Origin: a virus
Direction: 5' to 3' (one strand)
Length of the DNA stretch: 40,327 nucleotides
IMG/VR virus record: IMGVR_UViG_3300020477_000060
Coordinates: 1-40,327 of that record
Within the stretch, counting starts at the first letter, position 1. Every line of letters begins with the position of its first letter. Below, piece after piece: positions 26,939 to 32,518 of the stretch. The notes beneath the pieces are model-generated. The model was not told where the DNA came from. It saw only the letters and a program-made list of their open reading frames with translations, and searched no databases. Both the position numbers and the translations under genes were made by a program.

Positions 26939-29407
26939 CTATGCGAAAAAGAAAGGTGAATCTCTCACCATGTTAATATCCAAGTCTCCCTTCATGGGTG
27001 GACTAGGTAATGCTCCTTCTGGTACTACCATTGAAGCATCTCTGAGAAACTCATCACAAACATCCCAACTGTTGTACATTTCAACAAAGGACTCTCGTAA
27101 GAGTTTCTGCATTAATGGCATTTGTGCCACTAATGATCCGTAGGAATCATGAATCATTGTTACTTGATTTAATCCTTGATCCCTGCATTTCTTTAAAGTG
27201 AGTGTTAGATGACTTGCATCAAGACTATGTATTAGATTTGGTGGAGTTGCGTTACCTACTTTCCAGCTATCTTGCTTATTACCTACTGGTGTTCCTTGGA
27301 TGTGTGCCATTATTAATTTACCATCCAGAACTGTTTTAATTTTTCTTGATCTAACCTCTGGGTAATTTTGGACTACTACAAAACCACTAGGTGTTCTCCA
27401 TTGAACAGGTACTCCCTTTGCTATAACTTTCCTTGATACTTCTTTAATCCATTGCATACCAATAGTTGCCGCTTTTACTTTTTCTTCTAATGCTTTCTTT
27501 ATTGGTGTAACTAACCATCTTGATTCTTTAAAAGCATCAGCAACTCTTTTACCACTTTTGAAAGGCCAATATTCCCCAGTATTTTCCACTACATAACTAT
27601 TTAGATACTCTGTGTACATGTGACTAGTTCCACCATAGGGAAATGTCATAACTATTTTCTTCAACATCTTCCTATTAATTAAACTACTCTCTAACCAATC
27701 TCTTGCTAGTGGTTCATTGGAATTCTTTAGCTCATCTATAACTGCATCGGCAACTTGCTGGTACAAATCCTGTGGTTTATCTGTTTCGGTGAGATTACAA
27801 TAAAAACCTGTCTCAGCATCACTTAGAATAGCTGAATAATGTTGAATACCATTTTGTGAACCATCTGTGTGTATCCAATAATTTGATTTATAACCTAATC
27901 CATTATTTTTGTATTTTTTCCATTCCTTGCAGAACGCTAAAAATTGCCAAGGTTCATCTGCTTCTGTCCAAAACTTACAATCAAAAGGATGCTTAGAACT
28001 TTCTAAAATTGCTGGTGTGTTATGCTCTACCCATCCTACTCTTTGTTTTATTGAAGCTTTATCAAAACCATATAAATTTGCTCCTGCAACTGCTAGAGCA
28101 TCCACTTGATCTTGTTCTGTAACAGGCATTCCTACTGCACTTTGTAAAAGTGACTTAGACCAATCTGGACCCTGTGGATGTAAGAAGTTGTGCATGAGGT
28201 AATATCTACCTCTGTAATCACATTGGGCTACATAGTTAAATCTTTTGTGTTGCATTAAATCCTTTGCCATTTGCAAACCCCTGACAAACTGCAACCTTCT
28301 AGAGTAAATCTGATTGTTTTTCCTCATTAACATGGCATAAGGTTTAGCCCACTCATCCCATATTATTTTTTGTTCATCTGTTAATGTTTTTTTAGGTGTG
28401 CCAGGAAAAGGACATTGTGGTAATTGGTAAGGATCTCTAGTAGGTATTCCTTCCCAAGAATCCCCACTTTCATAAGCTCTTTCCATTACCTGAAACATAG
28501 AAGTATTTATACTGAATTCAGTTTGTTGCATTTGGTTCAATGCTTCATAAACCAAAGGCATTTCTACATTGTCTAAATCTTGATATCCAGATTTCTTGTG
28601 TAGCTTAATTGCTCTCAAACCTTTTAAATGACTAGTGTAATAACCACCACCTAGTGTTTTCTCTTGCCAATCCCTAGGTGTTACAACACAAGGCATGTAT
28701 TGAGTTGCAATCTTCTCTTTATGTTTCTCAAGTTTTTCAATCCAATCAATTGCTGATGGATTAGCTACAACCATATTTATGGTTTTCTTTTTATTTACAT
28801 AATTAGGTATTATGTTTATAAGTCCTGTTTCTCTATGAATTAGGTGAATTAAAATTTTACCCAACATGACCTTATCGGCATCATCCAACGTAAGTTCATG
28901 TAAATTTAATTCTGTTTTTCTAGAGAGTAGCCAAGTCATAGCATTTTTCTTGCGATACCTTGGGTTTCTTTTCTGATGCTCTGACTCTAAGACTTTCTTA
29001 AAATAATTTGGATTCTCTGCACGGAAAATACGCAACCTATATTCATCTTGTATAGAATTACCTATAGTTCTGGCAACTCTCATTTCAGGATGTTGTTGTG
29101 AAATGCTATCTAAAGTACAAATCAATGCTAGGTAGGCTATTGTTTCATCTTCTAGTCTTAAAGAATCAACAACATCTATTAGGTGAGTAGCGTATGCTGG
29201 ATGTCCTTTTATTCTCCTTAGTTTCCAATTATAAAAAGCAGTAGCTACTGGTTGTACTGCTTCTGACATAATAAAACGTACAGAGGGGAGTCTAGTCCAT
29301 GACTCTGAATTCTTCGCATCTTGTGAACCCCTCTGGTAACGCTTTTGACCTATGCGTTTACCTTCTAGTTCAAGGCTTAACTGCTTTTCCAGTACGTTTT
29401 GATACAT
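26939..29407 (-). CDS. Single-subunit DNA-directed RNA polymerase (T7 gp1-like)
   Basis: 822 residues (T7: 883). Catalytic residues are in place: Asp515 in HTDGSQNGIQHYSAILSD (T7 Asp537), Arg579, Lys583 and Tyr591 in INRKMLKKIVMTFPYGG (T7 Arg627, Lys631, Tyr639), and Asp754 in MIHDSYGS (T7 Asp812). The protein ends SPFFFA, keeping the C-terminal Phe-Ala foot. The promoter-specificity region (about 690-710, KTVLDGKLIMAHIQGTPVG) differs from T7, so its promoter cannot be read from T7 rules. Its start overlaps the zinc-ribbon gene by 38 bases. A host-type promoter at 31456-31484 is the likely driver of this gene block. Confidence 0.97.
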   Translation of the reverse strand: MYQNVLEKQLSLELEGKRIGQKRYQRGSQDAKNSESWTRLPSVRFIMSEAVQPVATAFYNWKLRRIKGHPAYATHLIDVVDSLRLEDETIAYLALICTLDSISQQHPEMRVARTIGNSIQDEYRLRIFRAENPNYFKKVLESEHQKRNPRYRKKNAMTWLLSRKTELNLHELTLDDADKVMLGKILIHLIHRETGLINIIPNYVNKKKTINMVVANPSAIDWIEKLEKHKEKIATQYMPCVVTPRDWQEKTLGGGYYTSHLKGLRAIKLHKKSGYQDLDNVEMPLVYEALNQMQQTEFSINTSMFQVMERAYESGDSWEGIPTRDPYQLPQCPFPGTPKKTLTDEQKIIWDEWAKPYAMLMRKNNQIYSRRLQFVRGLQMAKDLMQHKRFNYVAQCDYRGRYYLMHNFLHPQGPDWSKSLLQSAVGMPVTEQDQVDALAVAGANLYGFDKASIKQRVGWVEHNTPAILESSKHPFDCKFWTEADEPWQFLAFCKEWKKYKNNGLGYKSNYWIHTDGSQNGIQHYSAILSDAETGFYCNLTETDKPQDLYQQVADAVIDELKNSNEPLARDWLESSLINRKMLKKIVMTFPYGGTSHMYTEYLNSYVVENTGEYWPFKSGKRVADAFKESRWLVTPIKKALEEKVKAATIGMQWIKEVSRKVIAKGVPVQWRTPSGFVVVQNYPEVRSRKIKTVLDGKLIMAHIQGTPVGNKQDSWKVGNATPPNLIHSLDASHLTLTLKKCRDQGLNQVTMIHDSYGSLVAQMPLMQKLLRESFVEMYNSWDVCDEFLRDASMVVPEGALPSPPMKGDLDINMVRDSPFFFA

Positions 29408-29591
29408 ATATCCCTAACTTCCTGTCTAGGATAAGCTCATCCGTTACTTTTAACGATTCTACTTCTAATTGCACTCTTGCAATTGCTATATACTTATTAC
29501 TACAAGAGCATTCAATAATACTACTACCAGAATGTTCCCTGTGTTCTATGTGTCTTTTACCACAATGAGGACACTTACTTTCTACTCTCAT
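29370..29591 (-). CDS. Small zinc-ribbon protein, unknown
   Basis: 73 residues starting MRVESKCPHCGKRHIEHREH; the pair CPHC and the pair C-S-C at residues 28-30 with intervening His residues suggest a zinc ribbon, followed by a beta-type domain (KYIAIARVQLEVESLKV). It is the gene just upstream of the RNA polymerase and overlaps its start. Its stop-start neighbour is the Na/Pi transporter (29591). A nucleic-acid-binding role is possible but unproven. Confidence 0.65.
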   Translation of the reverse strand: MRVESKCPHCGKRHIEHREHSGSSIIECSCSNKYIAIARVQLEVESLKVTDELILDRKLGIYVSKRTGKAVKP

Positions 29592-30070
29592 TAAAACCTT
29601 CCTATTAACTTAGATATTTGATTAACAAAAGGTAATAAACATATTGCCATTAATGTGTTAACTCCTGTGTGTACAATAGCAACTTGTTTAGTTATTCCTG
29701 TTGGCATACCATCTGATACAAGTAATCCTGCCAACCATATAGTTCCAGTAGTACCTATATTAGCCCCAAGTATACAAGCAATAGCAGAAGGTAAAGGTAA
29801 GATGCCACTAGCAACTAAACCAATTATAGCAGTTGTACTTAGTGAACTAGATTGCCAAAGTAACGTACACACAATCCCCCCGATAAACATATAATATGGG
29901 TTAGACATAAAGTATTTAAGTTGTTCTACATCACCTAAAGACTTCATGCCACTAGCAAACATTTTTAAACCTATGTAGAACACAACTAATCCAACAACTA
30001 TACTTACAACTGGACTATCCAATAGTAGTTTCCTCATATACTGCTGGTTTAAAGTTTCTGTCATAGTCAT
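29591..30070 (-). CDS. Na+/phosphate cotransporter, single-repeat (PF02690-like)
   Basis: 159 residues, about four or five membrane segments. The repeat signature of the NptA/PNaS family is unmistakable: GLVVFYIGLKMFASGMKSLG, then WQSSSLSTTAIIGLVASGIL with the QSSS motif (73-76), LGANIGTTGT (101-110) and HTGVNTLMAICLLPF. Cellular proteins carry two such repeats (often plus a PhoU domain) in about 300-550 residues; this one has one repeat and would have to work as a dimer or modify a host carrier. ATGs at 30070, 30064 and 30037 are possible; an AGGA five bases before 30064 favours that one. It looks host-derived, an auxiliary metabolic gene for phosphate uptake. Confidence 0.88.
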   Translation of the reverse strand: MTMTETLNQQYMRKLLLDSPVVSIVVGLVVFYIGLKMFASGMKSLGDVEQLKYFMSNPYYMFIGGIVCTLLWQSSSLSTTAIIGLVASGILPLPSAIACILGANIGTTGTIWLAGLLVSDGMPTGITKQVAIVHTGVNTLMAICLLPFVNQISKLIGRF

Positions 30071-30636: not shown

Positions 30637-31126
30637 AGTGTCCTCCTATAAATTTTTTACCTTTATTAGGTGCTTCTCTTTCTCTTAATGATTCTACTTC
30701 ACCATCTAATCCATGATAAAGTGCAGTTAGTTGTCTCATAAACTGCTTTTCATACTTAGCTACTTCATTTTCTGCTACAAACTTATGTTTAATTTCACCA
30801 TCAACTAATACATCTACTCTCTTTTTACCTTTGTTAAGTGGTGATCTACCCTTACAAGACTTTAAATGATTCTCTCTTCTCTTTTTGTCATACTTGAGCA
30901 TCCTTTTATAAGCAATAGGTTGATACTCTTTTTGTAAACAACCACAACTCTTAGTATTTAACTGTACAACTGCTTGATGGTATACCTTAGTGTAGTTACC
31001 GCAATCACACCTATATACATTAATTCTATGTCCAAATTTATCTCTATGAGAGAATCTAACCATAGTAAGTCTACTACCATCTATTTTACCAGTAAGTTGC
31101 CCTTTATCCTTCACCATGTTCTTCAT
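30629..31126 (-). CDS. Zinc-binding DNA-associated protein (CxCG...SCGC type)
   Basis: 165 residues. The N-terminal 60 read GKIDGSRLTMVRFSHRDKFG...YRCDCGNYTKVY...TKSCGCLQ: paired CDCG and CGC cysteines of the small zinc domain frequently found in phage homing-endonuclease-like (AP2/HNH) proteins. The rest is basic (RMLKYDKKRRENHLKSCKGR) with no HNH catalytic residues that I can see. Likely binds DNA; a free-standing nuclease is not supported. Confidence 0.6.
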   Translation of the reverse strand: MKNMVKDKGQLTGKIDGSRLTMVRFSHRDKFGHRINVYRCDCGNYTKVYHQAVVQLNTKSCGCLQKEYQPIAYKRMLKYDKKRRENHLKSCKGRSPLNKGKKRVDVLVDGEIKHKFVAENEVAKYEKQFMRQLTALYHGLDGEVESLREREAPNKGKKFIGGHYV

Positions 31127-31376
31127 TTGTAAGAGAATCTACTTTACAAATACCATGTCTCCTAACACTATCAAAAGTCCAAGAGTAAACTTTAGCGTAT
31201 TCTTCACCAGCAACTAGTTTTCTACTAAATGAATCACTTAATGAAGATAGTTTTTTTATTGTACCACCATTATTTTTATAAGCTTCTATTGCTTTATTTA
31301 ACTCATCTCTGGAAATTTCATTAACTTTAGATTTCCAATGATGTGCTAATGCCCTTGAAGCAAAAGTATTTCTCAT
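31104..31376 (-). CDS. Hypothetical protein, first gene after the host-type promoter
   Basis: 90 residues: basic N-terminus MRNTFASRALAHHWKSKVNE, then DELNKAIEAYKNNGGTIKKL, a helix-turn pattern also common in small cyanophage proteins. Function unknown. It is the first gene after the predicted promoter at 31456-31484 and would head the RNA polymerase operon, the place of early host-takeover genes in T7-like phages. Confidence 0.6.
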   Translation of the reverse strand: MRNTFASRALAHHWKSKVNEISRDELNKAIEAYKNNGGTIKKLSSLSDSFSRKLVAGEEYAKVYSWTFDSVRRHGICKVDSLTNEEHGEG

Positions 31377-31455
31377 AATAAACTTACATATAAGTGGATT
31401 AACCTAGTGAACCAGCCCTTTGCTGACAACCGCTAATCCAAAGGAAGGATAGGGG
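31377..31455 (-). promoter_or_regulatory. Structured 5' leader of the RNA polymerase operon
   Basis: The untranslated stretch between the predicted promoter and the first early gene contains nested inverted repeats on the minus strand: ATCC/GGAT around TTCCTTT, GGATTA/TAATCC about 30 bases apart, and inside them CAGC-AAAGG-GCTG. No riboswitch or tRNA consensus was recognised. Confidence 0.35.
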
Positions 31456-31484
31456 AGTATTCCACACCCCCCAAACCCTGTCAA
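31456..31484 (-). promoter_or_regulatory. Host sigma70-type promoter for the early/RNA polymerase block
   Basis: Minus-strand TTGACA (31484-31479), a spacer of exactly 17 bases, then AATACT (31461-31456). The -35 is consensus and the -10 matches four of six, close to T7 A1 (TTGACT-17-GATACT). It overlaps the stop codon of the ribbon-helix-helix gene and points at the operon 31376 to 21 kb. Confidence 0.65.
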
Positions 31485-31648
31485 GAATTTTTTTTATCCC
31501 TTTCAATTTTTTCTATAACTGCCAATTCCACAAAAGCTTTAAGGGACATGTCCAGATCGTTCTGTAGAATAAACATTTTGGCTTCTTTAACAAGTTTTCG
31601 GGCCAAGACTACGTTAATTACCTCTTTTGCTTGCATTTGCATTCCCAT
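31481..31648 (-). CDS. Small ribbon-helix-helix (CopG/Arc-like) DNA-binding candidate
   Basis: 55 residues from ATG 31648: MGMQMQAKEVINVVLARKLV then KEAKMFILQNDLDMSLKAFV. A short beta strand (EVINVVLA), helix, Asp-x-Asp-x-Ser turn and second helix (KAFVELAVIEKIERD) is the ribbon-helix-helix pattern. A frame stop just upstream rules out a longer version. The only good Shine-Dalgarno (AGGAG, 31671-31675) is 22 bases away and better placed for an overlapping 16-18-codon leader ORF, suggesting coupled translation. It lies directly downstream of the integrase and is the best candidate for the regulator that binds the AGTTTTCGGG repeats. The fold is inferred by eye. Confidence 0.55.
   Translation of the reverse strand: MGMQMQAKEVINVVLARKLVKEAKMFILQNDLDMSLKAFVELAVIEKIERDKKNS
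31593..31602 (+). repeat. AGTTTTCGGG repeat, copy 1
   Basis: Exact ten-base copy inside the regulator gene. It is one of six within 775 bases and all lie in the same orientation. A given ten-mer is expected well under once in the whole window. Confidence 0.8.
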
Positions 31649-31670
31649 GGTTATATTTTGACATTCTCAT
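31614..31670 (-). CDS. Possible leader peptide overlapping the regulator gene
   Basis: An 18-codon frame MRMSKYNHGNANASKRGN, or 16 codons from the second ATG at 31664. The second ATG is six bases after AGGAG, a better site than the regulator gene has. It ends inside the regulator gene in another frame. Either a coupling device or chance. Confidence 0.3.
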   Translation of the reverse strand: MRMSKYNHGNANASKRGN

Positions 31671-31692
31671 CTCCTGTTACCTTTCTGGAGTT

Positions 31693-31704
31693 GAGAATTA
31701 GAGA
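31693..31704 (-). promoter_or_regulatory. Repeated upstream element, copy A (regulator gene)
   Basis: Minus-strand TCTCTAATTCTC immediately after the integrase terminator hairpin and 45 bases before the ribbon-helix-helix ATG. It is one of seven copies at 31.7-35.4 kb and is extended upstream to TCTCTCTAATTCTC here. Confidence 0.7.
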
Positions 31705-31706
31705 GA

Positions 31707-31731
31707 GGGGCAAGCCTGAGAAACTTGCCCC
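31707..31731 (-). terminator. Integrase terminator hairpin
   Basis: GGGGCAAG and CTTGCCCC form a perfect 8-bp stem with a 9-base loop, five bases after the integrase stop codon on the minus strand. It is followed by TCTCTCTAATTC instead of a plain T run. Confidence 0.7.
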
Positions 31732-31736
31732 GACTA

Positions 31737-32312
31737 CTACATAATGTTTAGTGCTTCAGCTTTATTAAGTGCATCCTCTGCACTTATATTTAAATAAAGA
31801 CTTGTTGAAGCAACATTACTATGTCCCAGTAGTTGCCTACAAGTCTCAATATCTCTAGTTTCCCTATAAACAAGATAAGGTTTTGTCCTTCGCAAGCTAT
31901 GACTACTGTATAGTTCCCAATCTAATCCAGCAGAATAAGCAATATCTTTTACAATATTTCTATATTGTGGTGCTGAAATAGGTTTAAGATTGCCAGTTTT
32001 CGGGCAAGCTTTTCTACTTGGGAATAAAGGGTCATCGTGCTGGAGTTTTCGGGCATGAAGATAATTGCGAACTAGATCCATAGTGTAATCTGACAATCGA
32101 CAATTAACTTTTCTAGATGTCTTCTTTTGCTTAACTTCTAGATTTTTTCGGATTCTTCCATGAACATCTACAATATCACTTACTCTTAAAGCAATAAGAT
32201 CACAACATCTAAGGCATGTATCAACATGAACACAAAAGAGAAGTTGATTCCTACCAATAAGTTTATTTCTAATAGAATGAATTTGCTCTTTTGTGAAAGG
32301 TTGCTTTTGCAT
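31737..32312 (-). CDS. int: Tyrosine recombinase / integrase (catalytic domain only)
   Basis: 191 residues. The catalytic set is visible: Arg35 in DTCLRCCDLIALR, His138 and Arg141 in HSLRRTK, His164 in QLLGHSN, and nucleophile Tyr173 in STSLYLN. There is no N-terminal arm-binding or full core-binding domain, so it is shorter than lambda-type integrases (about 350 residues). Pelagiphages of the HTVC019P type carry an integrase at this place, upstream of the RNA polymerase, and integrate into host tRNA genes; no tRNA-derived attP core was recognised here. It has its own host-type promoter (32417-32444), and five of the six AGTTTTCGGG copies lie in or just upstream of it. Confidence 0.92.
   Translation of the reverse strand: MQKQPFTKEQIHSIRNKLIGRNQLLFCVHVDTCLRCCDLIALRVSDIVDVHGRIRKNLEVKQKKTSRKVNCRLSDYTMDLVRNYLHARKLQHDDPLFPSRKACPKTGNLKPISAPQYRNIVKDIAYSAGLDWELYSSHSLRRTKPYLVYRETRDIETCRQLLGHSNVASTSLYLNISAEDALNKAEALNIM
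31995..32004 (+). repeat. AGTTTTCGGG repeat, copy 2
   Basis: Exact copy inside the integrase gene. It encodes part of ACPKTG, a different reading frame from copy 3 (ARKL), so the conservation is not due to shared protein sequence. Confidence 0.8.
32044..32053 (+). repeat. AGTTTTCGGG repeat, copy 3
   Basis: Exact copy inside the integrase gene, followed by CAT as in copy 6. The extended consensus is AGTTTTCGGGCA. Confidence 0.8.
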
Positions 32313-32315
32313 GGT

Positions 32316-32367
32316 GGTTTTCGGGGAGAGAATTAGAGAGATACCAAGTTTTCGGGAAGTTTTCGGG
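32316..32367 (+). repeat. AGTTTTCGGG repeats 4-6, cluster in the integrase leader
   Basis: Copies at 32316-32325 (GGTTTTCGGG, one change), 32347-32356 and 32358-32367 (both exact) lie between the integrase promoter and its ATG. Copies 5 and 6 are spaced 11 bases apart, one helical turn, which suits side-by-side protein binding. Copy 4 reaches to four bases from the integrase start codon. Confidence 0.85.
32328..32339 (-). promoter_or_regulatory. Repeated upstream element, copy B (integrase)
   Basis: TCTCTAATTCTC on the minus strand, 15 bases before the integrase ATG and lying between repeat copies 4 and 5. No hairpin directly precedes this copy, unlike most others. Confidence 0.7.
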
Positions 32368-32476: not shown

Positions 32477-32518
32477 AACCCTTGAACCATGAAAAAATTA
32501 TAGCATGTTCCAAGGGTT
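32477..32518 (-). terminator. Intrinsic terminator after the GP88-like gene
   Basis: A 15-position stem (AACCCTTGAACCATG against CATGTTCCAAGGGTT, 13 pairs) with a 12-base loop, followed on the minus strand by TTTTCTATTTTTTTC. Confidence 0.85.

Follow-up and report, generated by a model that had tools for sequence, protein, structure and literature searches.

A tyrosine recombinase gene of a T7-like marine phage, a virus of bacteria, contains and is surrounded by copies of one ten-base word that all point the same way. The window, by which the whole analysed stretch of 40,327 bases is meant, is the record of this phage, and its main genes are carried on the minus strand. In the order of transcription, the region consists of the gp88 gene, a T-tailed hairpin, a promoter-like box (P1), a leader, int, rhh, a second promoter-like box (P2), a gene for a 90-residue protein and an HNH-like gene. 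The gp88 gene, which matches PF17338, directly precedes int (31737..32312, minus strand), and int codes for a tyrosine recombinase of 191 residues. The rhh gene (31481..31648, minus strand) codes for a protein of 55 residues, a putative ribbon-helix-helix-like regulator. A T7-like RNA polymerase gene is located at 26939-29407 (minus strand), with at most 32% identity to its relatives in pelagiphages and other T7-like phages. With the SutA RNA-polymerase-binding domain, the 90-residue early protein (31104-31376, minus strand) gave a match that falls short of the gathering score (E 3e-4), and a homologue in the relative L001 gave a weaker one. The early region also contains a Na/Pi-cotransporter-like gene of 159 codons (29591-30070, minus strand; PF02690, 1.9e-17), which is possibly a host-derived phosphate gene.

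Read along the genes, the word is CCCGAAAACT, corresponding to AGTTTTCGGG on the plus strand. Five exact copies were identified in the 40,327-base record, all within 775 bp and in a single orientation; reverse copies of AGTTTTCGGG were absent from the whole record, and a control read backwards also gave none. When one mismatch was allowed, AGTTTTCGGG gave six matches, all on the plus strand, of which those starting at 31593, 31995, 32044, 32347 and 32358 are exact and the one at 32316 reads GGTTTTCGGG. Seen in the direction of transcription, on the minus strand, the first copy past the promoter-like box lies at 32358..32367, a second exact leader copy follows at 32347..32356, and the one-change copy, CCCGAAAACC, is found at 32316..32325, immediately 5' of the int ATG. 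Two copies are located inside int, at 32044..32053 over the codons A-R-K-L and at 31995..32004 over the codons P-K-T, and one inside rhh at 31593..31602, also over codons A-R-K-L. The first-pass annotation had described such a cluster, with one altered copy beside five exact ones and all of them in one orientation, and its description was borne out. Three copies lie, as it had said, between the integrase promoter, here the best promoter-like match, TTGACA-16-TAAAAT (32444-32417), and the ATG at 32312, two of them being spaced by 11 bp; the two copies in int occupy different codon frames (CGA-AAA-CT and CCG-AAA-ACT), one copy is inside the regulator gene, and the count of the ten-mer over the entire record gave no further exact copy. 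For matches with at most one mismatch, dinucleotide shuffling gave an expectation of 1.35, and six were reached in none of 100 shuffles. In 60 first-order Markov simulations, the commonest ten-mer had at most three copies per 800 bp (two in 56 simulations, three in four), compared to the five observed. Chance was ruled out by these shuffles and simulations, none of which reached the observed counts.

The repeats were found to be conserved in all seven relatives, which goes beyond what the first-pass annotation knew. Of the two results that it had named as refuting, many copies elsewhere in the genome and repeats not conserved around related integrases, neither was observed. These relatives are viral contigs with integrases 77-78% identical to that of the window, and their whole records contain 6, 8, 5, 6, 6, 5 and 5 exact copies, the counts for L006 and L007 being minima since these contigs start within the leader. 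Together with the window, 46 exact copies are present in the eight records; all 46 are codirectional with int transcription, none is reversed, and all fall between -512 and +714 relative to the int start. A comparison of 37 distinct 36-base contexts, with copies cut by contig ends dropped and identical contexts merged, revealed that the ten-mer is invariant over exactly 10 bp, with unconserved bases on both flanks. Kept positions are -52 in all seven relatives, +256 in all eight phages (32044..32053 in the window) and the site in rhh, also in all eight; other copies have been gained or lost. New sites at non-homologous places were identified at +305 within int, for the window only (31995..32004), and, for L001 and L002, inside gp88; their orientation is always the same.

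For the copies inside genes, it was possible to compare the word with the surrounding coding DNA. Between the window and the relatives, shared third codon positions amount to 0.49-0.54 in int and 0.45-0.55 in rhh, a comparison that is effectively one deep split, because the relatives differ little among themselves. In int, 5 of the 561 ten-base windows are invariant, and in rhh 3 of 171; in both genes the word forms an exactly bounded invariant run, which in rhh holds for all eight phages. The arginine codon in the -R-K-L- copies is CGA, a codon used for 7.3% of the 423 arginines in 15 window genes. The residue preceding this arginine varies (A, T or S), and the third base of its codon is always C. 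Judged from these sequence patterns, the constraint on the in-gene copies is one acting on DNA or RNA, not on protein.

Two sigma-70-like promoters were assigned in the region by consensus match: P1 (32417..32444, minus strand; TTGACA-16-TAAAAT, 11/12) upstream of int, and P2 (31456..31484, minus strand; TTGACA-17-AATACT with TG) at the 3' end of rhh. They are among the best of 33 promoter-like matches in the whole region, for which shuffles gave 32.0. From the start of TTGACA to the first copy, the distance is 77 bp in the window, L002, L004 and L005 and 75 bp in L001, that is, in five of six readable leaders. From the first copy to the int start it ranges from 58 to 222 bp, so the leader length is variable. 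In L003, the sites are kept and the TTGACA box is absent, which counts against the explanation preferred below. The T-tailed hairpin 3' of gp88 (32477..32518, minus strand), a likely terminator, is conserved in all six records reaching there. In the same six records, the hairpin loop contains TATAAT with an upstream TG, and the hairpin might also serve as an extended -10 promoter. After P2, a leader of about 100 nt is well conserved in the relatives (L001 5848-5987; homologues in L002-L007) and folds into a long hairpin, with both-side changes in 2 of 34 pairs and an unfavourable covariation term; the window's leader at this place (31380-31462, minus strand) differs from that of the relatives. 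A TCTCTCTAATTCTC box is found on the minus strand at 32328..32341, between the array and the int ATG, and again at 31693..31706, upstream of rhh. A second oriented repeat, TCTCTAATTCTC, is present on the minus strand of the window at 31693, 32328, 33207, 33830, 34082, 34390 and 35425. It precedes seven early genes, mostly just after a hairpin, has no reversed copy in the window, is kept in the relatives, and is possibly a processing site, a terminator tail or part of a phage promoter.

The explanation tentatively preferred here is that a sequence-specific regulator of the int-rhh unit recognizes CCCGAAAACT, with the 55-residue protein as putative binder and with repression resembling that by stoperators. 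The unit would be bounded by the terminator-like hairpin after gp88 and transcribed from P1, so that int and rhh would share one transcript. Sites would begin about 42 bp past the predicted transcription start and recur within int and then within rhh. The putatively ribbon-helix-helix protein encoded 3' of int would bind the asymmetric sites and, once bound, stop or slow transcription through the int-rhh unit, and this repression would limit the supply of the integrase and of the 55-residue protein itself. A bound protein hindering transcription is proposed because the sites are exact, asymmetric, codirectional and irregularly spaced and because the first of them keeps a constant spacing from the promoter-like box. 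The irregular spacings between copies, from 11 to 457 bp, are no sign of cooperative packing and count against this explanation. By appearance, the array looks like an on-off control of the integrase gene, and by this route it may take part in the lysogeny decision. Because no site is present at P2 or in the RNA polymerase gene, the map does not in itself imply a lysogeny switch, and a control of lytic genes is not evident from the map alone.

The likeliest candidate for the binder is the neighbouring 55-residue protein. It is present in all eight phages, with a nearly invariant VINVVL[A/S]RKLV stretch. Searches against Pfam, NCBIfam and PDB sequences gave only sub-threshold and unrelated matches, short proteins being often missed in such searches. 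In two AF2 monomer models, the protein consists of two helices (pLDDT 89-90), and the strand expected for a ribbon-helix-helix protein is drawn as a helix. The weak structural neighbours of the first model are for the most part ribbon-helix-helix domains, namely NikR, CopASO, CdbA and Arc (Z 4.2, 3.5, 3.1 and 2.6); for the second model, unrelated helical proteins lead the list and Arc, the one ribbon-helix-helix entry, is fourth (Z 2.7). Nothing in the structure searches was significant, all Z being below 5. From these models the protein is possibly a member of the ribbon-helix-helix group, an assignment held as a weak lead. Proteins of this group mostly bind in pairs, and isolated single sites with hundreds of bases between them would be atypical.

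Since the sites surround int, a function in recombination has to be weighed, and the first-pass annotation had named recombinase arm sites beside an operator array. The integrase matches PF00589 (1.3e-21) starting at residue 8, and its start aligns with that of the catalytic domain in XerA-like structures (PDB 4a8e, residues 104-276). According to the Pfam match and the structure alignment, both the arm-binding and the core-binding domain are lacking, which confirmed the earlier view of an integrase with only a catalytic domain, a view from which a separate binding protein had been favoured. The residues R35, H138, R141, H164 and Y173 are invariant in all eight integrases; R, H-x-x-R, H and Y are presumably the residues of the tyrosine recombinase catalytic domain. 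When attP was sought, neither a tRNA nor a tRNA-like T-loop nor any other candidate was found. With neither an arm-binding domain in the integrase nor an attP found, recombinase arm sites are less likely. Of the two earlier proposals, an operator-like protein-binding array was supported by the conservation, the 10-bp limits, the single orientation, the turnover and the fixed box distance, and classical arm-type sites were not, in view of the catalytic-domain-only integrase. It is unlikely that the sites serve recombination in another way, with a small accessory protein (the 55-residue protein or a host factor) binding them and either building an attP intasome or directing excision. Such a protein would make up for the missing arm-binding domain, and the directionality of an integrase without extra domains would need a stand-alone partner. 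However, the sites span up to 1.2 kb, reach into coding sequence, occur in one orientation only as direct and not inverted repeats, and begin with a constant spacing from a promoter-like box; the absence of any attP candidate also speaks against this role.

The word might also act in the mRNA, where CCCGAAAACU would be bound by an RNA-binding protein or paired with a host small RNA to control translation or decay of int-rhh. Every one of the 46 copies has the sense orientation of the putative transcript, the near-copy adjoins the int ATG, the leader copies lie in weakly structured RNA (folding at those of the window was no better than in shuffles, z 0.61), and an exact, non-degenerate word fits base pairing. 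Nevertheless, we consider this improbable. The reverse complement is absent from all eight records, so that an antisense RNA is not encoded by these phages and a self-antisense RNA was excluded; the gp88 copies of L001 and L002 lie upstream of the terminator-like hairpin, and in the one leader that was folded no shared hairpin was identified around the copies.

Signals for replication start, partition, Chi-like recombination or packaging are typically exact, oriented and clustered words, and the copies share these properties. A DNA-processing signal of the host or the phage, be it a replication start, a partition-like cluster, a Chi-like site or a packaging site, is nevertheless quite improbable, since the copies are confined to the gp88-int-rhh region and track it, with none elsewhere in the records, and the distance from the promoter-like box is fixed. 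That the repeats are functionless, arising by chance or mere shared ancestry, is hardly credible: the seven relatives are mutually close, but neither the shuffles nor the simulations reached the observed counts, the copies are conserved exactly amid diverged coding DNA, and new copies have appeared at new places.

The distribution of the array was analysed in wider searches. In all viral contigs, 18 stretches with the paired word were identified, the seven known relatives among them. Neither int nor the 55-residue protein has a relative in the remaining 11, and the eight of these that were examined turned out to be repeats, either tandem or coding, or unrelated loci. Accordingly, the word alone defines no wider system. 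In genome contigs, at least 120 stretches carry the paired word, and among 80 loci examined no int-plus-array locus was present, with one weak int-like match (L090, E 0.01); no prophage was found in genome contigs with int as query. Wider queries of viral contigs with int or the 55-residue protein gave the same seven records among the matches listed, and a search for the array-to-box spacing gave these seven only. The array is absent from the distant integrase relatives L038 and L039. In open-licence full text, no report of the word in phages was found.

The proposed repression of int-rhh through CCCGAAAACT bears on the control of integration and lysogeny in integrase-bearing T7-like phages, which is poorly understood. 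With a defined 10-bp site and a single adjacent candidate protein, it is testable with one gel shift and one reporter, and the codon-embedded sites would be a clean natural example of regulatory DNA constraining a protein sequence. For T7-like cyanophages, the available parts of one report describe integration without stable lysogeny, with no repressor recognised (PMC8776855).

The closest parallel is offered by the stoperators of Cluster A mycobacteriophages (L5, Bxb1, TipsytheTRex), for which the orientation relative to transcription matters, according to excerpts of two papers (PMC9283540, PMC6550527). The stoperators described there are short, asymmetric and highly conserved; they keep one orientation with respect to transcription, lie close to the regulator gene and occur both at promoters and within transcribed regions. 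The array analysed here shares these features. In contrast, the sites here are of 10 bp, with 5-8 copies in about 1.2 kb, compared to 13 bp and 20-30 copies genome-wide in Cluster A; they also lie inside coding sequence, and the candidate binder has 55 residues, compared to about 183 for the two-domain repressor.

A ribbon-helix-helix protein that binds 10-bp direct repeats is ParR. Like the array described here, the parC iterons are asymmetric direct repeats near a promoter, and ParR also represses, as far as the available sections state (PMC5016525). The window copies are irregular and widely spaced, however, unlike the regular tandem parC repeats, and a partition role is not indicated.

In all nine integrase-bearing T7-like phages compared, a MarR-family gene is found directly before a larger integrase gene and the RNA polymerase gene. 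This MarR-integrase module (LUZ100, HTVC120P, CRP-125) was proposed to control lysogeny, the control by MarR in LUZ100 being a hypothesis in the consulted part of the report (PMC10134795). It resembles the locus described here, as far as that part goes, in having an early integrase before the RNA polymerase gene and a small regulator gene adjacent to it. However, the window integrase has 191 residues and those of the module about 290-360, the candidate regulator of the window is encoded behind int and not before it, and the repeats differ. None of the 15 early window proteins scanned gave a MarR match, and the position before int is occupied by gp88.

To compare arrays as such, 12 other T7-like phage regions were surveyed, without a shuffle control or formal cut-off. 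In all five Foussvirus-like pelagiphages, AGGGGCGA arrays of one orientation were identified in early leaders (L049 1700-2419; L051 5353-6064; L052 5266-5909; L054 1494-1630 and 3378-3523; L056 1324-1460). The integrase-less Eistla has a comparable single-word array with a different word in an intergenic position, and none was present in HTVC031P, HTVC168P, HTVC109P, LUZ100, CRP-125 and CRP-171. On this survey, such arrays are neither universal among nor exclusive to integrase carriers. Other direct-repeat arrays, of ACACCAGGCAA and TATACTTAGG (L051 2883-3008, L052 2869-2965; L047 4765-4823), occupy long intergenic stretches after maturase or lysozyme genes and are perhaps linked to genome ends. 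Like the window, the Foussvirus-like phages are integrase-bearing T7-like marine phages whose early leaders contain one short asymmetric word, always facing the same way; their word and genes differ, and their array precedes a swapped small-gene or methylase cassette and is not in int. The AGGGGCGA arrays hint that such arrays are used more widely, set against four other integrase carriers without one. It is a speculative and rather unlikely extension that the lineage of the window dropped the MarR-integrase module and controls its catalytic-only integrase by the 55-residue protein and codon-embedded 10-bp stoperators, with the Foussvirus-like phages using the same principle through AGGGGCGA. 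If this were true, temperate T7-like phages would commonly use arrays of a single orientation for control.
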